In this document: piece by piece, positions 7,199 to 24,540 of the stretch | Position numbering within the stretch: position 1 is the stretch's first letter | Layout: each line of letters begins with the position of its first letter | Assembly (NCBI GenBank): GCA_938002655.1 | Contig: CALLAC010000024.1 | Location: forward strand, 1-37,044 | DNA length: 37,044 bases | Direction of reading: 5' to 3' | Source: an uncultured Cytophagales bacterium | Lineage (GTDB): Bacteria; Bacteroidota; Bacteroidia; Cytophagales; Thermonemataceae | Translations under genes and position numbers: made by a program | The notes under the pieces: generated by a model | What the model was told of the DNA's origin: nothing | The model's input: only the letters and a program-made list of their open reading frames with translations | The model's database searches: none

Positions 7199-7263
7199 AC
7201 GAAAAAAGTATTGTGTTTTTACACAATAATGACGATTAACGCGTGCCAATAGCACGACAAAAG

Positions 7264-7296
7264 AAAAACCTACAAAAGCTTTTTTGTAGGTTTTTT
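7264..7296 (+). terminator. Intrinsic terminator after the YugP-like gene
   Basis: A 14-bp perfect stem (7264-7277 with 7282-7295) carries CCTAC/GTAGG at its core, has a 4-nt loop and ends in a T tract. It lies just upstream of the tsf promoter. Confidence 0.88.
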
Positions 7297-7308
7297 ATGC
7301 AGAAAAAA

Positions 7309-7339
7309 TTGCCTTTACTATAAAATTTTTATACCTTTG
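7309..7339 (+). promoter_or_regulatory. Promoter of tsf (TTG-N20-TACCTTTG)
   Basis: The -33 TTG at 7309-7311 and the -7 TACCTTTG at 7332-7339 are separated by 20 bases, the typical Bacteroidota arrangement. The predicted leader before ATG 7379 is about 33 nt. Confidence 0.8.
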
Positions 7340-7378
7340 TAGCCTAATTTACGTATCACTTAAAATTTTACAACCTAT

Positions 7379-8209
7379 ATGGCAATTACTGCACAAGATG
7401 TGAATAAACTTCGTCAAATGACAGGTATGGGTATGATGGATTGCAAGCAAGCCCTTACCGAAGCCAACGGTGATTTTGAAAAAGCCATTGAGTTCTTACG
7501 CAAAAAAGGTGAAAAAATTTCTGCAAAGCGTGCCGATAACGAAACCAAAGAAGGGGTTGTGATGATTTACACCAACGAGGCACAAAACGAAGGCATAATG
7601 TTTGCTTTCAACTGCGAAACTGAATCTGTTGCTAAAAATGCTGAATTCAATGCCTTAGCAGAAAGAATAATGAAAGAAGCCATTGCTCAAAAACCTGATA
7701 CTATTGAGCAACTCATGCAGCTGGTTTCAGAAGGTAGAACTTTGCAAGAGCATATTACAGATTTCGTTGGAAAAGTAGGAGAAAAGATTTTAGTTACGGC
7801 TTATACCAAAGTAACAGGCGAAAAAGTAGTCTCTTACTTACATAGCAACAACAAACTTGGAGTATTAGTTGTTTTGCAAGGTACTGATGGCATAAATTAC
7901 AAAGAAATAGGCAAAGATTTGGCTATGCAAATAGCCGCAATGAACCCTATTGCCGTAGATAGAGCCGATGTACCTCAGCATATTTTAGATAAAGAGCTTG
8001 AAATTGGTATGGAGCAAGCTCGCAACGAGGGCAAACCTGAAAATATGCTTGAAAAAATTGCACAAGGAAAAGTAAATAAATTTATCAAAGAAAGCACTTT
8101 ACTTAATCAGGAATTCGTGAAGGATAGCTCAAAAACAGTAGCTCAATACTTACAAAGCATTAGTAAAGACTTGAAGGTTATTACTTTCAAGCGTATTGCA
8201 GTAGCCTGA
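7379..8209 (+). CDS. tsf: Translation elongation factor Ts
   Basis: The 276-aa protein recycles EF-Tu by exchanging GDP for GTP. The N-terminal UBA-like domain with LRQMTGMGMMDCKQAL (residues 11-26) and NGDFEKAIEFLRKKG is diagnostic, followed by the core domains with FNCETESVAKNAEF and LAMQIAAMNP. Length and sequence are normal for the family. It stands alone: it has a promoter 40 bases upstream and a terminator just downstream, and rpsB is not adjacent, although rpsB-tsf is the common bacterial arrangement. The flanking genes are an envelope peptidase and a lytic transglycosylase. Confidence 0.98.
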   Translation: MAITAQDVNKLRQMTGMGMMDCKQALTEANGDFEKAIEFLRKKGEKISAKRADNETKEGVVMIYTNEAQNEGIMFAFNCETESVAKNAEFNALAERIMKEAIAQKPDTIEQLMQLVSEGRTLQEHITDFVGKVGEKILVTAYTKVTGEKVVSYLHSNNKLGVLVVLQGTDGINYKEIGKDLAMQIAAMNPIAVDRADVPQHILDKELEIGMEQARNEGKPENMLEKIAQGKVNKFIKESTLLNQEFVKDSSKTVAQYLQSISKDLKVITFKRIAVA

Positions 8210-8228
8210 AAAGTAATTTCTGTACTTG

Positions 8229-8264
8229 AAACGCTGTAAGGAATGTGTTTCTTTACAGCGTTTT
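8229..8264 (+). terminator. Intrinsic terminator after tsf
   Basis: A perfect 11-bp stem (8229-8239 with 8253-8263, core CGCTGTAA/TTACAGCG) can extend inward by several more pairs and is followed by TTTTGTTTT. It argues against the upstream in-frame ATG at 8226 as the start of the next gene. Confidence 0.88.
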
Positions 8265-8288
8265 GTTTTCTTGAAAAATGTAAAAACT

Positions 8289-9269
8289 ATGAAAAACTTT
8301 CAGAGTATTGTGTTGTGGATACTTGTTTTGGGGCTGATAAGTTACACCATCTATGATAAAAAATTTAATAAAATATTGTATGAGCAATACCAAGATGGCT
8401 CTTGGCATCAGATGCAACTCATAGATTTTCGTTTGCCTGAAAAGCTATATTTTGCCGATGAACCCGTACCCTTAGAAGATATGAGTGTACGACAACGCTT
8501 AGACAGAGAATTTTATGTATTTATTTTTTCTCATGCAACTACAGCAATGATTATCCGCAGAGCCAATCAGTGGCTTCCTCGTTTCGAGAAAATTCTTTCG
8601 GAAATGGGTGTACATACAGATTTTAAGTATTTACCTATTATTGAAAGCAGTTTAATTCCTCAGGCGGTTTCACCTATGGGAGCGGCAGGTTTGTGGCAGA
8701 TTATGCCCGAAGTAGGCAAGCAATACGGCTTGGAAATCAATGAAGAAGTAGATGAACGTTTTCATCCGATCAAGGCAGCGTATGTAGCGGCTCGGATACT
8801 GAAAGAAAATTACCAAAAATTTGGCAGTTGGGCATTGGCAGCAGCAGCTTACAACGCAGGGGCAGGATATTTGGAAGGAGTTATTCACTTTCAAAAGCAA
8901 AAGTCTTATTACAATTTGTTTTTGTATCCCGAAACTGCTCGTTATGTAATTCGTTTGGTAGCTTTTAAGCATATTTACGAAAATCTCCAAAAATATGGTT
9001 ATCAGATGAGGCAGGAGCATATGTATTATTTCCCAGCTTTACGAAAAATAAAAATTACAGAAAATATTCAGGATTTGGCTGAATTTGCCGAAAAATATGG
9101 AGTTTCTTATCGAACACTTATAGAGTATAATCCTTGGTTAAAAGGTAAAACTCTTAGTATCAAGGAAGGAAAAACCTATGAAATAGAGTTGCCTTATTCT
9201 TCTCGTAGCAAGCATGAGGTAAATACTGACATGAAAGACACTCTGAAAAAGATGAAAACAGAAGAATAA
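8289..9269 (+). CDS. Lytic murein transglycosylase (SLT domain) with one LysM-like domain
   Basis: A 326-aa membrane-anchored or exported enzyme that cleaves peptidoglycan between MurNAc and GlcNAc, forming 1,6-anhydro products. ATG 8289 gives an N-terminal hydrophobic segment (IVLWILVLGLISYTIY). An in-frame ATG at 8226 lies before the tsf terminator and is rejected. The SLT fold shows the catalytic Glu in IESSLIPQAVSPMGAAGLWQ (about residues 118-137), then IMPEVGKQYGL, and AAAAYNAGAGYL, all hallmark motifs of MltD-like enzymes. The C-terminal part (about 250-305, ITENIQDLAEFAEKYGVSY) looks like one LysM-type peptidoglycan-binding domain. MltD enzymes often have two or more LysM, so this one is compact. 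Confidence 0.9.
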   Translation: MKNFQSIVLWILVLGLISYTIYDKKFNKILYEQYQDGSWHQMQLIDFRLPEKLYFADEPVPLEDMSVRQRLDREFYVFIFSHATTAMIIRRANQWLPRFEKILSEMGVHTDFKYLPIIESSLIPQAVSPMGAAGLWQIMPEVGKQYGLEINEEVDERFHPIKAAYVAARILKENYQKFGSWALAAAAYNAGAGYLEGVIHFQKQKSYYNLFLYPETARYVIRLVAFKHIYENLQKYGYQMRQEHMYYFPALRKIKITENIQDLAEFAEKYGVSYRTLIEYNPWLKGKTLSIKEGKTYEIELPYSSRSKHEVNTDMKDTLKKMKTEE

Positions 9270-9280
9270 AAATAAATAAG

Positions 9281-9297
9281 AAAAGTGTGGCACTTTT
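9281..9297. terminator. Bidirectional hairpin between transglycosylase and MerR genes
   Basis: Perfect 7-bp stem AAAAGTG-TGG-CACTTTT. On the minus strand it is followed by a T-rich stretch, so it mainly serves the MerR gene, whose stop codon (9296-9298) it overlaps. It separates two convergent genes. Confidence 0.7.
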
Positions 9298-9661
9298 AGG
9301 CTGGTAATTCTTTTTTCAGTAAAATAAGAAATTCTTTCATACGTTTGAGAGATTCAATAACTTTTAGTTTCTCTTTCATCTCTTTGGAACGATTACGCAT
9401 AATTTCTTTGGCGGCTTCCAAACGGTAGCCTTCTACTTTTGTGAGTTGGTAAATAAGTTTTAGGTCTTCAATATTTTCTTTGGTAAAGCGTCTGTCGCCT
9501 TTACTATTTTTAGGAAATTGAAGCATATCAAATTCATTTTCCCAAAAACGGATGGTAGAAGGATTTACCTGTAACATTTCTGCTACCTCGCTAATAGTGT
9601 AAAAAAGTTTAACCTCTTGAGAAAGGTCTAAAATTGTATTTTTCTCATAATTGTCTTTCAT
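9296..9661 (-). CDS. MerR family transcriptional regulator
   Basis: The 121-aa protein has the winged helix-turn-helix of MerR regulators near its N-terminus: YTISEVAEMLQVNPSTIRFWENEF (about residues 21-44) followed by the wing with GDRRFTKENIEDLKLIYQL. A basic coiled-coil-like tail (about 85-121) should mediate dimerisation. There is no C-terminal effector domain and no cysteine cluster for metal sensing, so this is the short form widespread in Bacteroidota, where the ligand is unknown. It faces the transglycosylase gene. The 131 AT-rich bases upstream (9662-9792) show no recognisable promoter box, so it may be read as the last gene of the minus-strand group above it. Confidence 0.88.
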   Translation of the reverse strand: MKDNYEKNTILDLSQEVKLFYTISEVAEMLQVNPSTIRFWENEFDMLQFPKNSKGDRRFTKENIEDLKLIYQLTKVEGYRLEAAKEIMRNRSKEMKEKLKVIESLKRMKEFLILLKKELPA

Positions 9662-9792
9662 AAGTGTAAAAGTTTAAGAAAAGATGAAAAAGATATTCTA
9701 AAATATTCATTATAAAAATACGAAATAAAAAATTAAAAATCAAGTTTTTAGCATTTTTTATTTTTAAATTTTTTTTAGTAAAATATTAAAAT

Positions 9793-11073
9793 CTATTCAT
9801 AAAAATTAAAATCAGATAAATCTGGATTGTACTTTTTTTCGCGAGCAAGCTCATACTTGTAAACTACTTCGCCGAGAAGCTTCAAAAAAGGCATAGCTTC
9901 AGTGGCGTACTCGTAGTAATTATCATTGAGAATTTCGTTGCGATTGGTGTGAATAACAGCGGTAAGAAAAAACTCTACTTTGTTTTCAAAATCTACAATG
10001 TAGGCAGAGTCAATAGCAAAACCATAAGCTAAGCCTACAATATTAAATATTCTGATTTGAGGCTTGATAGTAGCAACAGGGTTTTGCCCATAGATGAAAT
10101 ACTTTTTGTAGGCATCAAAAAATCCTTGTTCAGGACGATAGCTGGTAAGTTTGCCTTCACGAGGATATGCTCCCATTGTTCTTCTGATGAAAGCGAGTTG
10201 TTCTTGGCTTAGATTAAATCGTTTTTGTGGTGGCAAGGCTTCAGGCAAAATAGCTGAAATGGTAAATTCATGTAAATATTGCAGAGGCAAGAAGTTATTT
10301 TTCGAAAAATCCATAGGACCATACTGCAATTTGCCATTCATATCCACAAAGGCTTTTCCCAACGAAACATTCAAGATAGGATGAAGCGTGGAATCGTTGC
10401 AAGTTTCGGGTTCTTTGTAAATAAGGTGAAGTTCTGAATCATAAAATAAAGTAGCATTGGTGCATTTGTTTTGTTCGGCAGTATAACAAGAACTCCCAAG
10501 CCTTCGGACTATTCTGACGCTATCATAACCTTTTTGCCTAAGTTGTGTATGAATGTATTTTTGTCCTAAAAAATCATATATGCGAGCAAAAGAAGGATTA
10601 TCACTTACTAAAAGCATTTGTTCAAGGTATTTAGCCAGACAAGGTGGAGAAGGGTCGTTAGCGAAATTACCAATAGCTCCCTCAGGGCATTGTTTGCTTG
10701 CCAGACTGCTCATGCGAGTAAAATGATTGATAATAGCATCTCCTTTTGTTTTGTTGATTTTATTAACTTTTTCCAAACTTAAAAGAGCAACAGGTAATTT
10801 AACTGTACTTGCAGGATAAAAATAGTTATTTATATCAACTTTATATTGAAAGGTTTGCAGAGTAGCTTTGTTTTGTTCGTCTCTATCTATTTGCGAGTAA
10901 ATAATCTGAATGTTATATTCTTTTCTTTCTAAATATTTTTTGAAATGATTGTATTGGGAGTAGAGTATAAACTCCAAAGGGTTAGGGGGATGATTTTTTT
11001 GGGCTAAAAGAACTTTGAAGCTGAAAGTAAAAATCAAATAAATAAAGAGCGTATTTAATTTCATAGTACTCAT
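9793..11073 (-). CDS. Exported serine hydrolase of the class A beta-lactamase/PBP fold
   Basis: A 426-aa protein with a signal peptide (MKLNTLFIYLIFTFSF up to LLAQ); ATG at 11073 or the in-frame ATG three codons later are both possible. The acyl-enzyme motif SxxK is present as PASTVKLPVA, and the SDN loop as LLVSDNPSFARIYDFLG, both in beta-lactamase-like order. The third motif, KTG in active beta-lactamases, aligns with IVG in RIFNIVGLAYGF (about 10030-10060), so the usual lysine is missing. I therefore infer a peptidoglycan or peptide hydrolase or a divergent member and would not call antibiotic resistance. It is 43 bases downstream of the lipoprotein gene and is probably in the same minus-strand operon. 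Confidence 0.8.
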   Translation of the reverse strand: MSTMKLNTLFIYLIFTFSFKVLLAQKNHPPNPLEFILYSQYNHFKKYLERKEYNIQIIYSQIDRDEQNKATLQTFQYKVDINNYFYPASTVKLPVALLSLEKVNKINKTKGDAIINHFTRMSSLASKQCPEGAIGNFANDPSPPCLAKYLEQMLLVSDNPSFARIYDFLGQKYIHTQLRQKGYDSVRIVRRLGSSCYTAEQNKCTNATLFYDSELHLIYKEPETCNDSTLHPILNVSLGKAFVDMNGKLQYGPMDFSKNNFLPLQYLHEFTISAILPEALPPQKRFNLSQEQLAFIRRTMGAYPREGKLTSYRPEQGFFDAYKKYFIYGQNPVATIKPQIRIFNIVGLAYGFAIDSAYIVDFENKVEFFLTAVIHTNRNEILNDNYYEYATEAMPFLKLLGEVVYKYELAREKKYNPDLSDFNFYE

Positions 11074-11116
11074 TATTTGCAGTTGAAGTACAGATGAAAA
11101 TATATAAGTTTCTGAT

Positions 11117-12469
11117 TTACATTTGTTTGTGATAATTTTTTTGTAGTAAAGATTCTTTTTTCTTTTGGGCAGATTTTTTGGGAGTTTCTTTTTTCTCTTC
11201 TATTGTTTCTACTTCTAAATCTTTATCTGTTACTTGTCCTATTTTTTTGGCAAGCATTAGGTTAGAGGTTCCTTCTCTGAACTGATAACCAATACCGAAA
11301 GGTAAGGGCTTTACATTTTCTTTGTTTCGGTATGCTTCACGCATTGCAATTTGATAACGATTACTGAACAAACTGATAGGGCCTGCATATACGCCATAGA
11401 ATGTTTTTTGCCATTTGCTATCATCCGAAAAATTCGAAAGAGGTATACCTGAATCATCTTGTAAAACGTATTGACTATTTTTCAAAATTATATCGCGAAT
11501 AATTTTAAAGTTATAGTTTTTACCTGGTGCCTGAACAGAATACATAAGATAAGAAGCGGCTTTTAGGTAAGTAGCTGTGGGTTTGAGTTTTTCTAAATAT
11601 TTTCTGAAATCAGGGTTTTCTTCTAATAAACCATAGTCAGAAAGGTTAGCACTGAAATAAATTACTGAGCGAATTGTATCATCATTTTTTCTTTTGAAAA
11701 ACAATCGGTTGCCATATACAACTTTTTTATTTTTGTTGTTATTATCAACTTTTTCTTTGTATTCGCTTACAGGTATTAAATTTCCTTCGGTATCTACTAC
11801 AACTTTTTCATAATAAGTGATAGTATTGTCTAATTGGGCGAGATACAGCATAATCAAATGAATAGTACCATCGACTTCGATGGATCGTTTACCTGTTAAA
11901 TCTACGGCCATATCATTGGTACGGAAAAAACTAAATTCGGCTAGAAAATATCCTGCTTTATTGAGTGCCGAGAAGTAATTGGTTTGTTTTTTGGCGATTT
12001 TTTCTACATTGAGCGGATTACCAATAGGCTCTAAGCCTATCATTATGATTTCATCAAGATTAGGAAAAAATACTTGGGCATGCAAAAAATCAGCCCCACT
12101 GAAAGGATAGAATAATGTACCTCCTCTTTGGTTAATTTCTTTTAGTTCTACATCAGCCCAAGCTCGCATTTTAGCAAGTTTGCCTTCTTTCAGCTTTTGC
12201 CATTTCCGATTACTTTCTTGAGAATATTTTTTCCAAGTTTCTGTTTTCTCGTATTCTTGCAAGGGATTGTTTTCTTCTTGTGGCAACCCTGCAATGAAAC
12301 GAGCAATTTCGTTATACTTTTTTTCTATTGGAACTACTCTTTCCTTTTTAGGTTCTTTTTCTAAGGTATCGGTAGCCTGAACAGATTGATTTGAATTTTT
12401 ATCATTTTTACAGTTTGTAAAAAGAGTAATACTTACAACTATTGTAAGCAATAAACTTCTTTTTTTCAT
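11117..12469 (-). CDS. Uncharacterised lipoprotein
   Basis: The 450-aa protein begins with a lipoprotein signal peptide and lipobox (LFTNC, Cys20), followed by a polar low-complexity linker rich in Lys and Glu. The body (about residues 50-420) contains FYPFSGADFLHAQVFFPN near residue 120, conserved-looking but of unknown meaning, and a Lys-rich tail. I do not recognise a functional domain. It begins 13 bases after the APC permease stop codon and precedes the serine hydrolase by 43 bases, so the three are probably one transcript from the promoter at 13933-13964. A role at the membrane linked to the permease or the hydrolase is possible but not shown. Confidence 0.8.
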   Translation of the reverse strand: MKKRSLLLTIVVSITLFTNCKNDKNSNQSVQATDTLEKEPKKERVVPIEKKYNEIARFIAGLPQEENNPLQEYEKTETWKKYSQESNRKWQKLKEGKLAKMRAWADVELKEINQRGGTLFYPFSGADFLHAQVFFPNLDEIIMIGLEPIGNPLNVEKIAKKQTNYFSALNKAGYFLAEFSFFRTNDMAVDLTGKRSIEVDGTIHLIMLYLAQLDNTITYYEKVVVDTEGNLIPVSEYKEKVDNNNKNKKVVYGNRLFFKRKNDDTIRSVIYFSANLSDYGLLEENPDFRKYLEKLKPTATYLKAASYLMYSVQAPGKNYNFKIIRDIILKNSQYVLQDDSGIPLSNFSDDSKWQKTFYGVYAGPISLFSNRYQIAMREAYRNKENVKPLPFGIGYQFREGTSNLMLAKKIGQVTDKDLEVETIEEKKETPKKSAQKKKESLLQKNYHKQM

Positions 12470-14083: not shown

Positions 14084-15094
14084 TTATTCTTTAATTGTGA
14101 TTTTTCGGGTATCTACGGCTCCGAGAGAGCGATTTTGTCGGGAGGCGAGTTCTAAAATCTTATCGTATTGTTCAGGTGAGAGGTCGTTGTAGAAATAATA
14201 TACAGGATTGACTTTCTCACCTTTGTAAATTACTTCATAGTGCAAATGGGGTGCAGTTGAAAAGCCTGTACTACCTACATAGCCGATGCATTCACCTCGT
14301 TTTACTTTTTGTCCAAGTCTTACATTGAAACGAGAAAGGTGTGCATAAAGCGTTGTATAGTCTTCGCTATGCTTGATTTGAATTTCGTTGCCATAGCCGC
14401 CAAAATTGTTATTGGCTGCGATTACTTGGCCATCTGCTGTGGCATAAACGGGTGTACCGTGTGGAGCGGCAAAGTCTATACCAGGATGAAACTGAGCACC
14501 ACCAAAAATAGGATGAAAACGCATTCCAAAGCCAGAAGAAAGGCGAGTAAGCTCTTTGTTAGAAATAGGTTGAATTGCAGGAATGCGAGCCAGGCGGTCT
14601 TCTTTACTTTTAGCCATCTGCATTATTTCATCGTAAGATTTGCTTTGTATGTACATTTTACGTTTGAGCATGTCTACTTTCTGTAAAGTATTGAGAATAA
14701 GTTTTTCGGTTTGCAGACCTTTTTGTAGTAAATCGCTATATTTTTCAGTTCCACCGGCTCCTGCAATACGTACTTCTTTGGGAATGGGGTCTGCGGCAAA
14801 AATTACTCTATACACTTTATCATCTCTTTCTTGCAAAGAATTAAGAACCTTATCTGCTTCATCTAATTTTTTATTGATAATTTGGTAGTAGCTCTTGAGC
14901 TCTTCTACTTCGCGAGCAAGTTCAAGCTCTTTATCCGACTTATGAAATTTTGTGTACAAAAAGGTAAATAAAACACCAAATAAAGAAGCTAATACAATAA
15001 TACCTGCTACATTGAGAAACAATTCCCATTTACTAACTTGAACTCTTTCGTAACGGCAAGAGTCCGTATCATAGTAATATTTGATTTTAGCCAT
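14084..15094 (-). CDS. M23 family metallopeptidase (LytM-type, membrane-anchored)
   Basis: The 336-aa protein has a short cytoplasmic N-terminus, one membrane segment (NVAGIIVLASLFGVLFTFLY, residues 29-48), a periplasmic coiled-coil region (about 55-165) and a C-terminal peptidase M23 domain. The zinc ligands are visible as HPGIDFA and HLHYE (HxH), with HPIFGG and YGNEIQIKH also conserved. Such proteins are endopeptidases or activators of amidases acting on peptidoglycan cross-links. The N-terminal MAKIKYYYDTDSCRYERV is a motif I associate with a conserved Bacteroidota M23 family, which supports this start. The gene is monocistronic, with its promoter at 15228-15257. Confidence 0.92.
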   Translation of the reverse strand: MAKIKYYYDTDSCRYERVQVSKWELFLNVAGIIVLASLFGVLFTFLYTKFHKSDKELELAREVEELKSYYQIINKKLDEADKVLNSLQERDDKVYRVIFAADPIPKEVRIAGAGGTEKYSDLLQKGLQTEKLILNTLQKVDMLKRKMYIQSKSYDEIMQMAKSKEDRLARIPAIQPISNKELTRLSSGFGMRFHPIFGGAQFHPGIDFAAPHGTPVYATADGQVIAANNNFGGYGNEIQIKHSEDYTTLYAHLSRFNVRLGQKVKRGECIGYVGSTGFSTAPHLHYEVIYKGEKVNPVYYFYNDLSPEQYDKILELASRQNRSLGAVDTRKITIKE

Positions 15095-15438
15095 AGAGCA
15101 AAAATAGTTTTGTTTGTAAAGTAATTAGCTGTTTAACTGCAAGTTAAGAATAATAAAGAAAAACATTTAGTATATGTACGTTGTTTAGTAAAAAAAAGTT
15201 TCACCCAAATATACATACATTGCTCGGCAAAACTAAAAATTTCATCTTTCAATTCAAAAAAAACTTGTAAAAATCTAATAGTTTTTCAAAATTTTTTCTT
15301 TGTTAAATAAAAAACTTTGTTTTTCAAAGTAAATAAAAAAACAAAAAAAATAAAAAGCATCCCGAAAAAAACATAGATTTTAAGAAAAATTGATAAATTG
15401 CCGCTGTAAATTTTTTGTAAAAAATATTATGTTAATCT
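15095..15438. other. AT-rich divergent intergenic region
   Basis: 344 bases between the divergent M23 and thioesterase genes. It is very AT-rich with long A runs (15300-15360). I find a good minus-strand promoter (15228-15257) and no exact plus-strand TAnnTTTG element before the thioesterase. No open frame or RNA gene was recognised. Confidence 0.6.
15228..15257 (-). promoter_or_regulatory. Promoter of the M23 peptidase gene (TTG-N19-TAGTTTTG)
   Basis: On the minus strand, TAGTTTTG (15235-15228) matches the -7 consensus, and TTG (15257-15255) lies 19 bases further upstream. The leader would be about 125 nt. Confidence 0.6.
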
Positions 15439-15954
15439 ATGACAACAAAAGCTAAATATGCTCGCGAATCCTATACGACAATGACTGAAATGGTACTTCC
15501 CAATGATACAAATACACTTAATAATTTGATGGGAGGGAGGCTGATGTATTTTATGGACGTGGTTTCGGCAATCGCCGCTCTCAAACATTGCAACAGAGTA
15601 GTGGTAACGGCTTCGGTGGATAATATTTCTTTCAAAGAACCTATTCCTTTGGGAAGTGTTATCACATTGCAAGCGAAAGTAACACGTGCCTTTAATTCGT
15701 CTATGGAAGTTCATATTGAAGTATTTGCTGAAAATCCTATCAAGCAAACCAAAGTTAAAACAAATAGTGCTTTCTTTACTTTTGTAGCCGTAGACCAAGT
15801 AGGTAACCCTATCAATGTACCTGAACTCATACCCGAAACAGATGAAGAAAAAACGCTTTATGAGGGAGCTTTGCGTAGAAGGCAATTACGCCTGATTTTA
15901 GCAGGAAAAATGAAACCCGAAGATGCAGGCGAGTTGAAGGCTTTGTTTCAGTAA
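15439..15954 (+). CDS. Acyl-CoA thioesterase (hotdog fold, BACH/YciA-like)
   Basis: The 171-aa hotdog-fold protein hydrolyses acyl-CoA to free fatty acid and CoA in the cytoplasm. The motif NLMGGRLMYFMDVVSAIAA (about residues 29-47) contains the Asn and the Asp that line the active site in this family, and the strand VVTASVDNISFKEPIPLGSVI is the second conserved block. The length is normal for a single-hotdog protein. The predicted helicase gene starts 46 bases downstream on the same strand with no terminator between them, so read-through into that cluster is possible. It marks the left border of the unusual three-gene cluster. Confidence 0.9.
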   Translation: MTTKAKYARESYTTMTEMVLPNDTNTLNNLMGGRLMYFMDVVSAIAALKHCNRVVVTASVDNISFKEPIPLGSVITLQAKVTRAFNSSMEVHIEVFAENPIKQTKVKTNSAFFTFVAVDQVGNPINVPELIPETDEEKTLYEGALRRRQLRLILAGKMKPEDAGELKALFQ

Positions 15955-16000
15955 AGTTAGCAACAGAATTTAATCTTTCTCTGTACTCAAAAGGAAAATT

Positions 16001-18127
16001 TTGACAATATTTGAAATTTTCAAAAATTATAGTCTAACCAACGGACAGCAAGAATTACTAACAAACTTAAACGAGTTTTTAGTAGACAAAACCTCTTGCT
16101 TTCTGCTAAAAGGTTACGCAGGCACGGGAAAAACTTTTATGATGAAAGGTTTAACAGATTTTCTCAAATCTACTAACAGACCTTTTGTTTTGGCTGCACC
16201 AACAGGACGTGCCGCAAAAGTCATTTCAAAAATAACGAAATCAAAGGCTTACACTATCCATAAAACCATTTATTCAAATAAAGACATCAGGGAATTTAAA
16301 ACCGAAAATACAGACGGAACAGAAACCTTTAAATTTTATTACAACCTTAAAAACAACGACGACCCAACCAATACGGTTTATATCATAGATGAAGCCTCTA
16401 TGATTTCCGATATGTACTCGGAAGGTGAGTTTTTTCGGTTTGGTTCGGGTTTCTTGCTCAAAGACCTTTTCAAGTATATCAATTTTGACAACAACGACCA
16501 TAAGAAAAAAGTCATTTTCATTGGCGATAATGCACAGCTGCCACCTGTGAATATGAACTTTTCCCCTGCACTCAACGAACAATATCTGCGTGAAAAATAC
16601 CAAGTTTCTGTAAGCAGTTATGAACTAACAGAAGTCGTAAGACAGCAAAATGATAGTGGCATTTTATACAATGCAACTAAAATTCGTGATTCTTTGAAAA
16701 ACAATATTTTCAATCAAATTGATATTGAAACTCATTTTTCGGACATAAAGCCTGTTCAACACCAAGATTTACTAAAAACTTATTTACAAGCCTGCGAAAA
16801 TCAAATTGATGATGAAACTATAATCATTGCCTATTCCAATTCATCTGTTAAGGAATACAACGATTTTGTAAGAAGACATTTCTTTCCGAACCAAAGCACA
16901 ATTACAAAAGGCGACAGAATAATTCTAGTTAGTAATAATTACAATTACCCAATTGAGTTACTGAATGGCGATTTTGGCATTATACAAGAAGTAAGTCCTA
17001 TCAATGAAACACGAAATATAACCTTAAAGCGTAAAAATAACTCAGGAAACGTAATAGAAACAAAAATTCCTTTACACTTTCGGAATGTAATCATTCAATT
17101 CAAAGATACAGACGACAAAACCTACAATATTGAGTGTAAAATCATTGAAAATATTTTGTATTCCAAAGAACGGGATTTGAGTTCAGACGAGCTAAAGGCT
17201 TTGTATATTGATTTTAAAATCCGTCATCCAAACTTAAAAGCAGGCACAAAAGAATTCAAAGATGCTTTGCAAACAGACAAGTATTTTAATGCTTTGCGTA
17301 TCAAGTTTGGTTATGCTGTAACTTGTCATAAATCACAGGGAGGAGAGTGGAAACGAGCATTTGTAAATTGTAAAACATCAATGGGTTATTTTAATCAGTC
17401 TTATTTTCGTTGGCTTTACACAGCAATTACAAGAGCAAAAGAAGTTTTATATACCCTTGACGAACCGCATTTCAAAATTGACAGTAACCTAAAACCACCT
17501 AAAATAGAGAATTTCACTCCAAGACAAGATTTGATAGTTCTAAACCCCGAAGTTTTGGAAACTGAATTGGCTTTTGATTTTTCTGATGAACAAGAACACT
17601 TAAAAGCCATATTCTTTGCTGTTTTTGACTTGATAAAAGACGAAGGAATAAGTATTGAAAGCATTAAGCACTCTCAATGGCATGAGCATTACACCTTTGC
17701 AAAAGGCAATGATAAATCTACACTTAAAATTTATTACAATAAAAAAAATCAAATAAGCTATATTCAAAAAACCTGTAGCTCTGAACTAGGAAATTATCTT
17801 GCTATGAAATTAGAAATAATTGTTAAAAAAATAATATTCATAGACAAAAGAAACGAAGATGAGCCTAAACATTTTTATTTCCCACACGATTTTCTGAAAG
17901 ATTTTTATGATAGCATTTTATCAAAAATAAAACCACTGGGAATATTCATAGATGAAATAGAGCATAAGCCATTTCACGAAATTTATAAATTTCGTAAGAA
18001 TAATCTTGTAGCTTTTTATAAATTTTGGTATAATAGCGAAGGTTTATTTGGGAAAATAGAAATTATAGAAAACAAAACTACTGGACTAAAAGAAGAAATA
18101 AACAGAATACTCTATGGAAAGTTTTGA
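16001..18127 (+). CDS. SF1B (RecD/Dda-like) ATP-dependent helicase with duplicated unknown C-terminal module
   Basis: A 708-aa helicase, probably translated from TTG 16001 behind a purine-rich AAGGAAAA; the first internal ATG would delete Walker A. Motifs in order: GYAGTGKT (38-45), IIDEAS (127-132), GDNAQLPPV (174-182), EVVRQ (210-214), TCHKSQGGEW (440-449, UvrD_C_2 domain) and LYTAITRAKEVLY (471-483). These define a 5'-3' type SF1B DNA or RNA helicase similar to RecD2 and Dda. After about residue 525 comes an unknown region with two related copies (about 533-598 and 629-703) sharing IK-x2-GI-x-I-x2-I-x-H-x3-HE-x-Y-x-F-x-K and YN. The next gene overlaps its last 14 bases. The Walker A and B residues are intact, so it should be active. 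Its partner genes both carry cold-shock domains. Confidence 0.88.
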   Translation: MTIFEIFKNYSLTNGQQELLTNLNEFLVDKTSCFLLKGYAGTGKTFMMKGLTDFLKSTNRPFVLAAPTGRAAKVISKITKSKAYTIHKTIYSNKDIREFKTENTDGTETFKFYYNLKNNDDPTNTVYIIDEASMISDMYSEGEFFRFGSGFLLKDLFKYINFDNNDHKKKVIFIGDNAQLPPVNMNFSPALNEQYLREKYQVSVSSYELTEVVRQQNDSGILYNATKIRDSLKNNIFNQIDIETHFSDIKPVQHQDLLKTYLQACENQIDDETIIIAYSNSSVKEYNDFVRRHFFPNQSTITKGDRIILVSNNYNYPIELLNGDFGIIQEVSPINETRNITLKRKNNSGNVIETKIPLHFRNVIIQFKDTDDKTYNIECKIIENILYSKERDLSSDELKALYIDFKIRHPNLKAGTKEFKDALQTDKYFNALRIKFGYAVTCHKSQGGEWKRAFVNCKTSMGYFNQSYFRWLYTAITRAKEVLYTLDEPHFKIDSNLKPPKIENFTPRQDLIVLNPEVLETELAFDFSDEQEHLKAIFFAVFDLIKDEGISIESIKHSQWHEHYTFAKGNDKSTLKIYYNKKNQISYIQKTCSSELGNYLAMKLEIIVKKIIFIDKRNEDEPKHFYFPHDFLKDFYDSILSKIKPLGIFIDEIEHKPFHEIYKFRKNNLVAFYKFWYNSEGLFGKIEIIENKTTGLKEEINRILYGKF

Positions 18128-20531
18128 AAGTTTTGAAGGAAAAATTATTAGTTTCAACGGTAAGTATGGTTTTATAAAGTTTGAAAAAGGAACTGCATAT
18201 TTTCATTCTAGTTACGTAAAACCAGAGTTGTTACCTAATTTGGAAGTGAATAGCAGAGTAGTTTGCGAAGTTATGCCCTCTACCAAAAAACCAGGCACTT
18301 GGCAAGTGGTTCGCTTTATTAGCATTGAAAAATATGAGAAAAAAGAACATCCACCTAATAGTGTTGCAATTGTGAAGTTTTTTGATGATAATAGAAGATT
18401 TGGTTTTCTAAGTAATGAAAATGGAGATTACTTTGTGCATGGTAATGACTTGAAAAACACCACTTCTATAAATAAAGATGAGATGTGTTTATTTTATCCG
18501 GTTCCTTCCATAAAAAAAAACTCATCATACGATGCCCGCAGCGTATATGTTTTGAGAAAAAACATTGAAAATTTAGAAAGTTTGGTTGATGAATATTTGA
18601 AAATAATTCAAAAATTGGATAATGCTACCAAGTACGAGCAAGTAAAGGAAATTTATAAATTCCTGAATCAATCACAACAGAGTGAATTTATACAAAAAGC
18701 TTATCAAATTGCTGATGAAGATAGAAAAATTTATTTTTGGATAGATGGTTATACCAATCAAGTAAATTTAGATTACTTACCTAAGGTTTTAGAAAAAACT
18801 ATTGATTTTTATTTTTATGAAATTTACGAAAGCATTTATAAGAAGCTAACCGAGGAGGAACGCCTCAAGGTTAGTATGGATTTTCTCATACACATTCAAA
18901 AATTGGATAATGATACCAAGTACGAGCAAGTAAAGAAAATATACGAACAATTATCTTTAAATAATAAATTCTATTTCATCAGAAAAGCCTATGAAATGTT
19001 CAATAAGGAGTCTGAAGAAGTTTTCAATCTTGCAAATCATCAATTTGAGGATTTAAGATTAAAAGATTCAATAGAAGAATTTTTATTTTTATCTTCGTTC
19101 TTACTACTCAAACCTAAAAAAAATAAATATTATGGTATTCCTCTATTGAAACTAATACAAAAGGATATACTTTATGTGAAAAATAATGTTGAGGTTTTTG
19201 ATAGTAGTCTATTAAAGTTCTTTTATGGCTTATTAAAATTTGAATACTTCAGGTATTATCCTAGTGATGAATACAAAGAAATTGAAAATTTTATATCATA
19301 CAAGTTGGAAAACTTTGATTTTAAGAGTCTTCTATCAAGTGGAAATTTATCAGAAAGTTTAAAAATTGAAATAGTAGCCACTATTGGGGAATTGAGTAAG
19401 TATTTAACATCTCCTTACAAAAGCGATTTTTTTGAGAAATATGCAAATATTTTTATAGAAAATTTAGAACAAAATATTGATAAATACTTAAAAAATGAAG
19501 AAGACCTTATAAATAAATTGATGAAAATCAATATAATTGATAAAGAAATCTGTAACAATTTTATCAATAGAAATGCCATCTATTTCAGTACATATACGAA
19601 AATGAAACTTTGGTTACATGATTTATACGAAATATTCGATTACAATAACTATGGTTTTTATTATTTCAGGCTTAATAAATACGAGAAAAAGAGATATAAC
19701 CAAAAAGCTCGTGAGCTAATGAAAGAAGAAGTAAAAAAAATGATGATTGCTCAAAGGATACCTTGGCAATACCAATATACCGACGAGAAAAATATAAATC
19801 ATTATACAGCTACGTGGCGTAGTATTTGGTTTCTTGATAAAAAAATTAAATTTTGCATAAAAGAAATAGATGATGAAAATATCTTTTCTGTTCCTTATGA
19901 GTGGGAATACAGCAAAGAAGAATTTAACTTTTTGTATGGTTATTTATCAAAAAAACGAATTGAAGAAGTAATAGTACAAGAAAAAGAAGGAGTTATACTA
20001 AAAGTAAAAGGATTGGATATATTAGAAGAGTATATCTATAAAGCAATTATAGAAAAAGAAGTAAAAGAAAAAGGGCTAGAAAATTTTGTGAAAAAAGAAG
20101 GAGAAAACAAAATTCCACCTAGTTTGATTATCAGAAATCAGTGTATAAATTATCTGAATGATTTACAAGATGCAGGAATAAGTCCTATTGTAATATATGA
20201 AATTAGCCGCGACTATACAACAGGTAATATTTATACAGATACTTCATTGCTATTTAGTATTACAAGAAATGAATATGTGTTTATTATATGGGAGAGTTTA
20301 GAATTTAATAAAGCCAAGGCTACTCACATTTTCAAAGTAGAAAAAGAAATATATGGGGAATATTTTGAAAATATCTCAAATTTTATTCAAAATAACTTAA
20401 AAGTTCGCTCAAAATTGAATTCAAATGATTTTGAAGAAAAAGAAAAACTCAAATACTTGTGTAGAATAGACCATGATAATTTTGACTTTAAAAAGTGGGA
20501 AAACCAATTATTGAATATATTAGAAAATTAA
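18114..20531 (+). CDS. Large protein with two N-terminal cold-shock-like OB folds and an unknown body
   Basis: An 805-aa protein. Residues 8-72 form one cold-shock-like domain (GKIISFNGKYGFIKF with AYFHSS) and 83-148 a second (VAIVKFFDDNRRFGFLS with DYFVHGND); both keep the aromatic RNP1/RNP2-type positions, so nucleic acid binding is likely. The remaining 650 residues are helical, rich in Lys, Glu, Tyr and Phe, and unlike any family I recognise. A short internal duplication occurs at residues 165-180 and 261-276 (IQKLDN-x-TKYEQVK-x-IY). The gene is exceptionally AT-rich; for example, bases 19441-19500 contain only 9 G or C. It overlaps the helicase by 14 bases, and its stop overlaps the next start by one base. 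I cannot assign a catalytic function; a nuclease or sensor role is neither shown nor excluded. Confidence 0.82.
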   Translation: MESFESFEGKIISFNGKYGFIKFEKGTAYFHSSYVKPELLPNLEVNSRVVCEVMPSTKKPGTWQVVRFISIEKYEKKEHPPNSVAIVKFFDDNRRFGFLSNENGDYFVHGNDLKNTTSINKDEMCLFYPVPSIKKNSSYDARSVYVLRKNIENLESLVDEYLKIIQKLDNATKYEQVKEIYKFLNQSQQSEFIQKAYQIADEDRKIYFWIDGYTNQVNLDYLPKVLEKTIDFYFYEIYESIYKKLTEEERLKVSMDFLIHIQKLDNDTKYEQVKKIYEQLSLNNKFYFIRKAYEMFNKESEEVFNLANHQFEDLRLKDSIEEFLFLSSFLLLKPKKNKYYGIPLLKLIQKDILYVKNNVEVFDSSLLKFFYGLLKFEYFRYYPSDEYKEIENFISYKLENFDFKSLLSSGNLSESLKIEIVATIGELSKYLTSPYKSDFFEKYANIFIENLEQNIDKYLKNEEDLINKLMKINIIDKEICNNFINRNAIYFSTYTKMKLWLHDLYEIFDYNNYGFYYFRLNKYEKKRYNQKARELMKEEVKKMMIAQRIPWQYQYTDEKNINHYTATWRSIWFLDKKIKFCIKEIDDENIFSVPYEWEYSKEEFNFLYGYLSKKRIEEVIVQEKEGVILKVKGLDILEEYIYKAIIEKEVKEKGLENFVKKEGENKIPPSLIIRNQCINYLNDLQDAGISPIVIYEISRDYTTGNIYTDTSLLFSITRNEYVFIIWESLEFNKAKATHIFKVEKEIYGEYFENISNFIQNNLKVRSKLNSNDFEEKEKLKYLCRIDHDNFDFKKWENQLLNILEN

Positions 20532-21835
20532 TGCAAGACACTCAAACTCTCAAAATCCAAGCTGAACAGCTTCGTAAAGCCAAAAAATACGCTGATGCTT
20601 TGCCTCTTTACAAAAAACTATGGGAAGAACACCGAGAAAGTTGTAACGTGTGGGAAGGCTGGGCATATGCTTATTGTCTAAAACAACAGAAAGAATATAG
20701 CAAAGCCTTGGAAATTTGTAGAGAAGTGTATAAACTCAAACCTAATTTTGAGAATATAAAAGGTGTTTATGCGTGGTGCATTTATTATACAGAAATTGCC
20801 GTTGAGAAAGTCAATGATGAACAAAGGTTTCTTAAAGCAGGAGAAGCCATTTTAAAGCTATCAAAACAAGAAGACCCATACTCGCCTTACACACAAACCG
20901 TTTTCAAAATTTTGCAGTATCTCAATGATAAAGCCATTTACCCAACCGATAAAATTTTAGAATGGACAAATAAACTAAATTTTGAAATTTTGGATAATAC
21001 ACCTTTTTCATTTACGGATAACGAAGGAAAAACAAGGGAGATAGCACCTAAAAAAGAGCAATATTTTATGTGGCGAACTAAGGCATTGCTCGAAAAAGGC
21101 TTATTTGATGAATGTATAAAATTGAGCCAAAAGGCTTTAAATACATTCGAGAAGTTTCATTACAACAACGATATTTGGTTTGTTAGGCGTATTGCCTTGT
21201 CTTACAAAGGTTTAGGACAATCAGAAATAGCTTTAGAACAATTAAAATCATTATTAAAACGAAAAAATGAATGGTTTATTCATAAGGAAATAGCAGAGAT
21301 TTATTTTGAGCAAGGTAACAATGAGCAAGCCCTTAAATTTGCCATTGACAGTGCTTTGAGTTTTGGAGATGCAGATAAAAAACTAAATGTCTATAAACTT
21401 TTGTTCGAAATTTTGATGAGCAATAATCAAAAAGAGGAAGCCAAAAAGCATATTGAATTTATCTATCAAATTCGTAAGGCAATGAACTGGAAAATAGACA
21501 ACGATTTACAAAATCTTATCAATCAATTTCAAATTGACACGACAAAAACAATTGATTTGAGAAATTTTGAGAGAGAATTAAAACAAATTTGGGAAAAACT
21601 AAAATTCAATAACCAAACACAACTAACAGGAACGATAAAAGCAATACTTCCGAACGGCAAAGCAGGCTTTATTGAAACTGAAAATAAAAAATCGTATTAT
21701 TTCCAATTACGAAATTTCAAAGCAAAGCCCGAATTGGCAAAAGTAGGACAAAAAGTAACTTTCTTTTTAGAAGAAGGTTTTGATGCAAAAAAGAACCAAA
21801 AGACAGAGAATGCAGTAAATGTGAAAATATTTTAA
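20531..21835 (+). CDS. TPR-repeat protein with C-terminal cold-shock-like OB fold
   Basis: The 434-aa protein starts at ATG 20531, whose A is the last base of the upstream TAA (TAATG), so translation is coupled; an ATG at 20495 inside the previous gene is less likely. Tetratricopeptide-like helix pairs are visible at about residues 5-75 (AKKYADALPLYKKLW, KEYSKALEICREVYKLKP) and 185-310 (GLGQSEIALEQLKSLL, EQGNNEQALKFAIDSAL). The C-terminus (about 365-434) is a cold-shock-like domain (GTIKAILPNGKAGFIET, SYYFQLRNF, GQKVTFFLEEGFDAKKN). TPRs bind proteins and OB folds bind single-stranded nucleic acid, so this may be an adaptor between the helicase and its substrate; that is inference. It converges on tamL, with only 26 bases between stops. 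Confidence 0.85.
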   Translation: MQDTQTLKIQAEQLRKAKKYADALPLYKKLWEEHRESCNVWEGWAYAYCLKQQKEYSKALEICREVYKLKPNFENIKGVYAWCIYYTEIAVEKVNDEQRFLKAGEAILKLSKQEDPYSPYTQTVFKILQYLNDKAIYPTDKILEWTNKLNFEILDNTPFSFTDNEGKTREIAPKKEQYFMWRTKALLEKGLFDECIKLSQKALNTFEKFHYNNDIWFVRRIALSYKGLGQSEIALEQLKSLLKRKNEWFIHKEIAEIYFEQGNNEQALKFAIDSALSFGDADKKLNVYKLLFEILMSNNQKEEAKKHIEFIYQIRKAMNWKIDNDLQNLINQFQIDTTKTIDLRNFERELKQIWEKLKFNNQTQLTGTIKAILPNGKAGFIETENKKSYYFQLRNFKAKPELAKVGQKVTFFLEEGFDAKKNQKTENAVNVKIF

Positions 21836-21861
21836 TTTTGTAAAATAACCTGACAGGTCGC

Positions 21862-24540
21862 CTAAAACGGATACCCAATACCAATATTGAGGACGGCTAA
21901 ATTAGAACCAGCGAAAAGCCTTTTCAGACGAACTTCTGGTAAAACGAAACGGCTTTTTTCAGGACGAGCAGGGTCAAATACTCGTAATCCTAAATCTATG
22001 CGAATAAGCAGAAAAGTAAAATCCATACGTAAACCTGTGCCCGTAGCTACACCTAATTCTTTGTAAAAATTTGTACTGAATTTGCCACCCAACAAGCCTA
22101 CATCTTGTAAAGTCCAAATATTGCCTATATCGATAAACCAAACTGAATGGAAAAAGCTCCATAGCTTGAAACGCCATTCAACATTGGCTTCAATAACTAT
22201 GTTGCCCTGTTTTTCTACATTCACAAGGCTATCAGGTGGATTGAACGAACCAGGTCCTAAACGACGTTGTATCCAGCCTCGCATTGTGTTGCCTCCTGAA
22301 AAGAAAAATTTTTCATAAGGTAAAATATCAGAGTTACTGTAAGGAGAAGCTACTCCTACAAATAAACGAGTAGCTATTTTAGAATGACTGTTTCTCTGAT
22401 GCGATAGCGGTTGATAGTACTTGAACTCTGTAGAAACTCGCCAAAACTTAAAATATTCTAAACCAAAAATTTTATTTCTTTCTAAAAAATCCCTATTGAA
22501 TAAATTGAGCACTGTACCGCCGAGTTCGGTACCAAATCGCCCATAATACTGAACATCGTTTATTCTGTGATTGATAGTATTGTATTCGTAATAAAAATGA
22601 GAGCTAGTTATCAGAGCATTCCGGAAACTTAGTTCCAAGTTGTTGCCTTGTAATCTAAAATTTTCTAGTAATTTACTGAACCTCTCATCTTTTCGATAAG
22701 TATTTATAACGTTTAGGTCAATAGGGGAAAATCCAAAATTTTTGTAAGGAAATTGATACCAATTGTACGTAAGAGCTAAACGAAAATTTCTTCTGCCATA
22801 TTCAGGACGACGAACAAAGGCTATCCCTGCATTGAAACGCGTACTTGGTGCAAGAGTATTGATAGAAGGCTTGTATTTGATTTTTCCTGGTACGAATAAA
22901 AGAGGCGTAATATAAGTAGAGTTAAAGCCAATTTGTGTAGTTTGATACACTTCGCCTAGATTGATAAAACTTGCTTGCCCATCAATAGAAAAAAGAAAAT
23001 TATTTTCTAAAATACCACAACCTTTCCATAAATTTCTGATTTTTAGAGACGTATTGAAAAATGGACCTGGAACGTTCTGAGCAATTGAACCGCCGATTTC
23101 ATTGACCATCTCAAATTTATCATTGGGGGTGGCAAGTATGGCAACATCTAAACCACCTCGCTTATCATCACGAGTTTGCAAGCTACGAAATTTAAAAAGG
23201 TTCAAGCTAGAAAGATTATGCCCTGTTTGGTCGAAAACAGATTTATTGTAAGGTGCATTCGGGCGTAAAAGAATTTTCGTATAAAGAATTTTCGGAGAAT
23301 ACTCTCTTTGTGATGTAAGATGAATAAATTTGATAGCTTTATCAGGTTCTTGGCTGGGAAAATAATAGCCCATTTGGGTAGTATCTTTCGGGTTAAATAC
23401 AGTTTCATCTTTTACAATGAAATAAACTTTGTTAATTTTGTATTGAATGTGTTTTCCTAAGATTTCATCCAAATAGATTTGAGATAAGGCATTTCCTATG
23501 GTATTTTGCTGAATAAATGAAGTATCTCGTTTTTTAGGATTATTGATAATAAAACGCAGGTGAGCTAAATTTTTCTTTTTCACTATTATTTCACTATCCA
23601 TAGCTTCACCTGTAAATATTCCTTCTTTCTTTGTAATGCTTGTATCTACTTGTATGATGATATATTGTTTATCAAAACGATAAAAACCATTTTCTAAAAG
23701 CAGTTTTTCGATGCGTTCTCGCTCTTGAAGGGCTTTATCACGTTCTAAAATTTGTCCTACTTTTAATTTACCTGACGAATATTTTATAAGAGAGTCTATG
23801 ATTGGATTATCGGTTACGTAGTAAATGCTGTCAATACGATGCGGCTCACCTTCTTGAATAAAATACGTAACCTTGATGGTCTTTACTGCACTTTTTCCAA
23901 GCTTTACTATCGATGAATCTACCTTATAGCTTACTTTGCTTGCAAAAAAACCTTTGATGTAAAGATACTCTTGCATTTCTTTACGAGTTTTTTCAATATT
24001 TTCAGGATTATAAATACTGAAAGGCTCACCAATAGCTCGCATACGAAAGGTGCCTTTTTCTTTTTCTAGTTCTAGCCTAGCAATTACTTTATCTCGCTTT
24101 TTCTTAATTTTATTGTATCGTTTTTGGTTATTTTGTTTTATAGCATTTTGTAGTAATGTATCGTAATGGATTTGTTGTGCTTCCAATCTATAATCAACAT
24201 AGCCATTTTTTTTTCTCTTCTTGTTCAATTCAGCTTGCAAAATTTTTATTTTTTCAGGATTTTTTTCGATTTTTTCGGCGTACTCGGCCAGTAAAATACT
24301 ATCTTTGAGCCTTTGCATTTCTACACGTCTACGACTGCTTTCATAAATAGAAGCATAAGGCATAAATTTCCAAAAAATTTTTCTATTGGCTTTTTGCCTG
24401 TAAAGAGCTTCTAATTCTTCGGTTGTGATATATTTATTACCTTTGATACTTTGTTTGTAAAGAATGTAATCTTTCGGTAAAAATGAAGAACAAGATGAAA
24501 CAAATAAAACAAAAGAGAAAAAGCTGATAAATTTTTTCAT
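21862..24540 (-). CDS. tamL: BamA/TamA-family outer membrane lipoprotein (TamL-like)
   Basis: An 892-aa outer membrane protein of the Omp85 superfamily. It has a lipoprotein signal peptide with lipobox ending in FVSSC (Cys17), unlike classical BamA, and matches TamL, the lipidated TamA homologue of Bacteroidota that works with TamB in envelope biogenesis. A Lys/Glu-rich helical stretch (about 60-170) precedes POTRA-like domains (about 175-320). The beta-barrel fills roughly the last 400 residues and carries the conserved GGNTMRGWIQRRLGPGSF (about 748-765), the RGF-type barrel lid loop. The protein ends in an outer-membrane beta-strand, LAVLNIGIGYPF. It is divergent from the SpoU methyltransferase, with 36 bases between the starts. 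Confidence 0.88.
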   Translation of the reverse strand: MKKFISFFSFVLFVSSCSSFLPKDYILYKQSIKGNKYITTEELEALYRQKANRKIFWKFMPYASIYESSRRRVEMQRLKDSILLAEYAEKIEKNPEKIKILQAELNKKRKKNGYVDYRLEAQQIHYDTLLQNAIKQNNQKRYNKIKKKRDKVIARLELEKEKGTFRMRAIGEPFSIYNPENIEKTRKEMQEYLYIKGFFASKVSYKVDSSIVKLGKSAVKTIKVTYFIQEGEPHRIDSIYYVTDNPIIDSLIKYSSGKLKVGQILERDKALQERERIEKLLLENGFYRFDKQYIIIQVDTSITKKEGIFTGEAMDSEIIVKKKNLAHLRFIINNPKKRDTSFIQQNTIGNALSQIYLDEILGKHIQYKINKVYFIVKDETVFNPKDTTQMGYYFPSQEPDKAIKFIHLTSQREYSPKILYTKILLRPNAPYNKSVFDQTGHNLSSLNLFKFRSLQTRDDKRGGLDVAILATPNDKFEMVNEIGGSIAQNVPGPFFNTSLKIRNLWKGCGILENNFLFSIDGQASFINLGEVYQTTQIGFNSTYITPLLFVPGKIKYKPSINTLAPSTRFNAGIAFVRRPEYGRRNFRLALTYNWYQFPYKNFGFSPIDLNVINTYRKDERFSKLLENFRLQGNNLELSFRNALITSSHFYYEYNTINHRINDVQYYGRFGTELGGTVLNLFNRDFLERNKIFGLEYFKFWRVSTEFKYYQPLSHQRNSHSKIATRLFVGVASPYSNSDILPYEKFFFSGGNTMRGWIQRRLGPGSFNPPDSLVNVEKQGNIVIEANVEWRFKLWSFFHSVWFIDIGNIWTLQDVGLLGGKFSTNFYKELGVATGTGLRMDFTFLLIRIDLGLRVFDPARPEKSRFVLPEVRLKRLFAGSNLAVLNIGIGYPF

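Follow-up and report, generated by a model that had tools for sequence, protein, structure and literature searches.

A candidate TOTE-type conflict system with a third gene in an uncultured Cytophagales bacterium

The TOTE systems, whose name stands for 'TPR, OB, TBP, Effector', are predicted conflict systems built around a helicase that bears TBP-like domains in tandem and a TPR protein carrying an OB-fold or cold-shock domain (CSD); PMC12458937 credits them to Aravind, Iyer and Burroughs (2022). In Pfam they are represented by the models PF22721, PF22707 and PF22708. Here, we analyze a 37,044-nucleotide stretch from an uncultured Cytophagales bacterium (contig CALLAC010000024.1, hereafter the window), in which three overlapping plus-strand genes at positions 16001-21835 encode a helicase (gene 1), a protein with two cold-shock domains (gene 2, the middle protein) and a TPR-CSD protein (gene 3). 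A first-pass annotation, made from the sequence alone, knew of no named system with this composition, but this does not hold: genes 1 and 3 have the composition of TOTE, and gene 1 matches the PADLOC candidate PDC-M16. The core of the cluster is therefore of a known kind, and what is new is the third gene and an apparent exchange of partners.

The locus resembles TOTE in its tandem-TBP helicase and its TPR-OB/CSD protein; members of the family are patchily distributed and are found on plasmids and near defense genes. It differs in the third gene between the pair, which contributes two extra cold-shock domains and an uncharacterized body, and in that the helicase and the TPR partner come from different family branches; in contrast to the TOTE systems with fused effectors, the window helicase carries no effector domain. 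With respect to PDC-M16 (models PDC-M16A and PDC-M16B), the helicase matches PDC-M16A over residues 1-704 (E 5.9e-272, 903 bits), whereas the partner fits a separate TPR-CSD model, PDLC01170, and matches PDC-M16B only weakly (best E 1.2e-9, 35 bits). TALON, which combines a YprA helicase with a NERD nuclease, has the TPR-CSD fusion and the TBP theme in common with the window, but the motor here is of the SF1B Dda/RecD2-like type, and none of the three proteins gave a YprA-type, NERD or other nuclease match in Pfam or PADLOC. The same SF1B motor fold is present in type IV CRISPR RecD-like and RecD2/Dda helicases, though the match to typeIV_RecD is weak (E 5.2e-24, 82 bits, against 903 bits for PDC-M16A) and no Csf-like product is encoded among the ten window proteins scanned. 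To our knowledge, these helicases have neither TBP domains nor a TPR-CSD partner. Cold-shock domains are also described in other predicted RNA-targeting defense systems (CoCoNuTs; PMC11090510).

The helicase and its TPR partner

The helicase gene (16001-18127, plus strand) encodes 708 amino acids from a TTG start. Its first ~490 residues form a motor of the Dda/RecD2/Pif1 type, recognized by Pfam as AAA_30/UvrD_C_2, and contain the intact motifs GYAGTGKT, DEAS and YTAITRA, which we take to be Walker A, Walker B and motif VI. An AlphaFold model built from 23 aligned sequences (mean predicted local distance difference test score, pLDDT, 83.7) has T4 Dda as its top match in the PDB (3upu; Z 29.0, root-mean-square deviation 4.2, 406 residues aligned), tied with RecD2 (3gp8; Z 28.9, root-mean-square deviation 2.7, 339 aligned), in agreement with the SF1B helicase initially proposed. 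Two TBP-TOTE domains that the first-pass annotation had missed lie within the C-terminal 180 residues. The first covers residues 534-601 (17600..17803, plus strand; PF22721, whole-protein score 98.2 bits, cut-off 27) and the second lies at 17888..18109 on the same strand (PF22721, 53.2 bits, over the cut-off). In the model this region is organized as a helix, four strands and a helix, occurring twice; the PDB fold comparison, which covers mainly residues 1-493 and barely tests the TBP part, did not recover these domains. A TBP-like fold of the helicase C-terminus is thus predicted from Pfam and the order of secondary structure elements.

The TPR-CSD gene (20531-21835, plus strand) encodes 434 amino acids from an ATG, with an alternative in-frame GTG upstream at 20495 that would give 446. 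TPR_19 and DUF7017 exceed the Pfam cut-off, and the C-terminal cold-shock/OB domain (21626..21823, plus strand) falls below it (E 0.083), within a strong match over residues 1-433 to PDLC01170, the PADLOC model for a 'TPR repeats containing protein fused to cold shock-like domain' (E 8.4e-107). Profile alignment shows the protein to be a homolog of the long TPR/S1-CSD proteins that accompany other TOTE helicases (hhalign probability 97.8%, E 1.2e-12). At E<=1, none of the three proteins was recognized by the Pfam S1CSD-TOTE models. In a separate observation, the TPR-CSD family profile matched, in its cold-shock region, part of a chain described as 'ribosome hibernation promoting factor' (9t0z_9, E 3.3e-5).

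Taken together, the TBP-like domain is represented by the two PF22721 stretches, the TPR partner by TPR_19, DUF7017 and the homology to other TOTE partners, and the OB-fold (S1/CSD) by the TPR-CSD model on gene 3 and the above-threshold CSD in the middle protein. Because TBP, TPR and OB are all carried by genes 1 and 3, we assign this pair to the TOTE conflict systems with high confidence. Three cold-shock-like folds and a TPR had been noted from the sequence alone, as had the overlaps between the genes, and both observations stand: the overlaps are exactly 14 bases between the helicase and middle genes and 1 base between the middle and TPR-CSD genes. Defense, one of several roles then suggested, also fits the combination of a TBP helicase and a TPR-CSD protein, which is a predicted conflict system.

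Pairing and partner exchange among TOTE loci

We examined 41 distinct TBP-bearing helicases longer than 580 amino acids, window included (42 rows minus L141, which is on the same contig as L052; five RecD-like rows of ~475 amino acids, L099, L100, L113, L130 and L166, were dropped). Loci were collected by helicase and not by partner. As the L049 helicase stops at a contig edge, 39 readable loci were available besides the window. All 39 have a TPR/S1-CSD gene downstream; it is the next open reading frame (ORF) in 38, at -26 to +27 bases in 37 of these and at -323 bases in L076, where the start is mis-called, while in L067 a spurious antisense ORF intervenes. The 17 seeds of the two partner profiles include 15 of the 39 partners, which thus carry their label by construction; the nature of the seed partners was seen by BLAST, Pfam or PADLOC, the BLAST match of L048 being weak (E 4e-4). 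The expectation that the three genes would co-occur elsewhere is borne out for genes 1 and 3 (or homologs of gene 3) in every readable TBP-helicase locus collected, but not for gene 2: only the window, among the 41 helicases, has an extra gene between the TBP helicase and its TPR partner. Given the family matches and the consistent pairing of the genes, the cluster is not a product of chance. Separately, genome G353 has two TPR-CSD genes (L054:9510-11174 and L055:9502-10929), with no TBP-TOTE match in a scan that also missed controls.

N-terminal extensions of 179-297 residues are found in nine of the 41 helicases and contain a protein kinase (L039), a NERD nuclease (L046, L051) or DUF4145 (L161-L164 and L067); L043, a close tree relative of L046, was outside the extension-domain scan. 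Thirty-one helicases have no such extension, the window helicase being like 30 others in this respect, and one more (L072) is truncated. The helicase motifs are altered in the NERD and kinase branches, unlike those of the window helicase. No known effector domain was found in any of the three window proteins with Pfam or PADLOC. Pairs of a TBP helicase and a TPR protein were also seen on two contigs filed as viral in IMG/VR (L164:5177-9906, with the DUF4145 extension, and L165:3397-6901).

The phylogenies of the two families place the window differently. In the helicase tree it groups with L064 and L065 (support 100/99; 65% identity to L064), whose partners are TPR/S1-CSD proteins of 859-888 amino acids, whereas in the partner tree the window protein belongs to the other deep clade, with L054, L055, L042, L052, L039, L043 and L046 (100/100). 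Forcing the window partner together with the L064/L065 partners was rejected in the approximately unbiased (AU) test (p 3.7e-6), as was a concordant placement of L051 (AU p 7.0e-5), although both p values are weakened by the naming of groups after both trees had been seen, by some long rows and by the odd amino-acid composition of the window row in both trees. The L051 locus (6646-12208) itself has the reverse mismatch, with a NERD-type TOTE helicase next to a TPR partner like those of L064 and L065. The L042 and L052 helicases carry a window-type partner though they lie apart from the NERD/kinase branch, and the window partner type thus occurs with at least three helicase lineages. We read these sequence comparisons as suggesting that TPR partners have been exchanged between TOTE branches more than once.

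The middle protein

The middle gene (18114-20531, plus strand; ATG start) encodes 805 amino acids, with two cold-shock domains at the N-terminus, followed by a body that contains repeats and by a conserved C-terminal domain. As anticipated, its body of ~650 residues belongs to no named family: Pfam identifies only CSD, and beyond it a single 9.7-bit match below the cut-off at E<=1. Cold-shock domain 1 (18132..18293, plus strand, limits approximate) corresponds to the second Pfam CSD stretch, and over this region the middle family profile matches CspB (2i5m, E 0.0012); cold-shock domain 2 covers residues 85-135 (18366..18518, plus strand), with a whole-protein PF00313 score of 37.7 bits (cut-off 27). 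In the body, 50-nucleotide copies at 18606 and 18894 (repeat region 18606..18943, plus strand) are 94% identical and lie 96 codons apart. This direct repeat, the longest found in the scan, points to a recent duplication or gene conversion of the body repeat.

The C-terminal domain (residues 541-805; 19734..20528, plus strand) is common to the relatives of the middle protein. Residues that are invariant in the family alignments include E696, W726, E727, T737 and F740, and these form no nuclease motif that we recognize. A single-sequence model of the C-terminal part was unusable (pLDDT 41.6), and a profile search of the PDB with this domain returned one match (E 0.5).

Relatives of the middle protein are few. 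They comprise proteins of 977 amino acids in G003, a genome of the same genus, and of 1012 amino acids in G619, a partial relative in G508 (38% identity across 362 residues), the C-terminal part alone, without cold-shock domains, in G612, and a short C-terminal match in G595; on visual inspection, the bodies of these relatives appear to have helical 'LW..G' units in common. A two-row profile gave matches in 10 of 291 genomes of the order at E<=0.001, own genome included, but five of these rest on a single match (E 1e-6 to 7e-4), which in four (G507, G575, G607, G633) is to the cold-shock part alone, and they are not counted as relatives. The whole protein was found in the own genome only among 395 genomes of the phylum, and so was the C-terminal profile among 296. 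No relative was detected in a scan of the genome collection with the single protein, on viral contigs with the two-row profile, or on plasmids and phages with tblastn.

We considered whether the middle protein might be a split-off piece of a long TPR partner, and dropped this (hhalign 0.3% against the long TOTE partners). Against the short partners the hhalign probability is 9.7%, with the match confined to the N-terminal cold-shock region, so that profile comparison gives no homology to the TPR partners outside this region. In G508, the partial relative is followed by an ORF with a weak RelE/ParE-like match (L155:1675-2055; E ~0.005, below the cut-off).

Genomic context, proposed function and alternatives

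The segment 15955..21861, to which no strand is assigned, is absent from two congeneric genomes. It lies between a YciA-like thioesterase gene on the left (15439-15954; match below the curated cut-off of the model) and TamL on the right (21862-24540; match above it), in line with the housekeeping neighbors described in the first-pass annotation. The spacing between the thioesterase and TamL genes is 40 bases in G002, 95 in G003 and 5,907 in the window, and the cluster is an insertion between them. No target-site duplication was noticed in a repeat scan, which was not a search aimed at one. An Rfam scan of 15000-22500 gave nothing at the gathering threshold, and promoter and terminator patterns were at chance level. 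In the congeneric genome G001, TamL lies next to a CRISPR array whose 30-base repeat occurs in 23 exact copies (L158:1672-3157); as the thioesterase was not seen on this stretch, the correspondence holds for the TamL side of the site. With two cases, the thioesterase/TamL site looks like one that receives defense loci.

To characterize the neighborhoods of other TOTE loci, we took up to two nearest ORFs of 150-1200 amino acids on each side. The 89 proteins flanking 26 loci, window excluded, gave matches to 77 PADLOC families at E<=1e-30. This is a count of families and not of proteins: many of the 77 are overlapping reverse transcriptase models, and those among the 25 families listed match three proteins each. 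As a control, 89 of 103 proteins flanking RecD-like helicases (23 of 26 loci, several sharing the same neighbors) matched no PADLOC family at this threshold. In two hand-picked flank sets, six of ten and three of ten proteins match named defense families, BrxC being among the three. Csm5 adjoins L044 and L045, and a retron-type reverse transcriptase lies near L068 and L069, TmtA near L071, a type I restriction R subunit near L051 and a DrmD/SNF2-like helicase near L076. In Pseudoxanthomonas winnipegensis (L074:3106-12620), BrxC is located 5 bases upstream and PglX 13 bases downstream of the TOTE pair on one strand, and the pair looks like it sits inside a BREX operon.

The distribution of the family is patchy. 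TBP-TOTE was detected at E<=0.001 in 16 of 395 genomes of the phylum (13 over the cut-off) and in three of 59 relatives (two over the cut-off), own genome included in both cases, and in the own genome no protein besides the window helicase matched. Among 72,556 plasmid records, 75 carry a homolog of the helicase at E<=1e-20, the presence of TBP not being checked per record, and in 65 the match spans at least 80% of the query; 48 of the 75 are mobilizable and 14 conjugative. No TPR-CSD was found on plasmids at E<=1e-8. Of 5,426 E. coli genomes, 53 contain one particular TOTE pair, at 29 chromosomal and 24 plasmid sites; 42 of the 53 have at least 80% of it.

From these data we infer the function, effector and mechanism of the cluster as follows. 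The TBP module and the motor would bind and travel along DNA that is invading, replicating or being transcribed, with the TPR-CSD protein as a scaffold that may bind single-stranded RNA or DNA as well as the motor; OB domains would hold exposed single strands and the TPRs tie the parts together. The middle protein would add two more single-strand-binding domains, and its C-terminal domain might supply effector activity or regulation, such that foreign nucleic acid would be destroyed or blocked. In our view, the three subunits, translated in a coupled way, likely form an acquired conflict (anti-phage) system of the TOTE type, and activity against mobile elements is probable. That the middle protein is a functional subunit is favored only slightly. 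A more specific proposal, in which it is the third obligatory subunit of a new TOTE subtype, sensing single-stranded RNA or DNA and acting as effector by way of a C-terminal domain not described before, the subtype having arisen by exchange of the TPR partner between anciently separated branches, is offered tentatively.

Several observations weigh against this interpretation as a conflict system of three subunits. The codon usage of the three genes resembles that of neighboring genes and gives no sign of recent transfer, and the immediate neighbors in the window are housekeeping and not defense genes. A search of the open literature, lacking most subscription papers, yielded no experiment on any TOTE system. 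The middle protein was seen beside a TOTE helicase in the window alone, its C-terminal domain gave no fold or catalytic motif in the model and the PDB profile search, and neither PF22721 nor TPR-CSD was found in the genomes with its relatives (G003, G508, G619, G612 and G595), although this is weak proof of absence, since the TPR-CSD scan matched no genome at all and the PF22721 scan that covered G508, G619, G612 and G595 matched neither its genomes nor its controls; the same queries did match other genomes. It could be, then, that the helicase and the TPR-CSD protein are a TOTE pair and that the middle gene is independent, having landed between them and working alone, as might also be suggested by its GC content, which at 26.8% is the lowest of the 31 window genes measured, and by relatives (G003, G619, G508 and G612) in genomes without a detected TBP-TOTE or TPR-CSD. 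The overlaps on both sides nevertheless point to translational coupling, the middle protein has cold-shock domains like the neighboring TPR-CSD protein, and a chance insertion keeping both overlaps is in our judgement unlikely. We regard an independent middle gene as rather unlikely. Within the conflict-system interpretation, the middle protein might be a toxic or nucleolytic effector in trans, replacing the NERD, kinase or DUF4145 domains that are fused to related helicases and were not found here; its C-terminal domain is common to the family and occurs without cold-shock domains in G612. Since most TOTE helicases have no N-terminal effector extension, an effector in trans may exist but need not, and this, together with invariant residues that form no nuclease motif known to us and the failure to obtain a fold, makes an effector role doubtful.

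Two further explanations assign the cluster a function other than defense. Cold-shock domains, a helicase and TPRs between housekeeping neighbors could make up a housekeeping operon or one for RNA remodeling under cold or stress, but the site is empty in G002 and G003, the distribution is patchy, helicase homologs are plasmid-borne, relatives have defense neighbors and the motor is closest to the DNA helicases Dda and RecD2, so that we consider such an operon very improbable. Only little more credible is that the cluster was left behind or carried by a plasmid or integrative element, with the helicase serving replication or transfer of the element itself: related helicases on mobilizable and conjugative plasmids and TBP-bearing helicases on the two viral-filed contigs are consistent with it, whereas the scan of ten window proteins in the vicinity of the cluster revealed no relaxase, integrase or replication protein, and relatives of the pair are located in what looks like a BREX operon and beside CRISPR, reverse transcriptase and restriction genes.

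TOTE systems have been named and catalogued by computation. As a probable acquired conflict system, the locus described here would be a naturally occurring version with three genes, in which the motor is intact, the partner seemingly swapped and one subunit putatively added. By comparing the window locus with its two-gene relatives in E. coli, it would become testable which part of such a system senses and which part acts.

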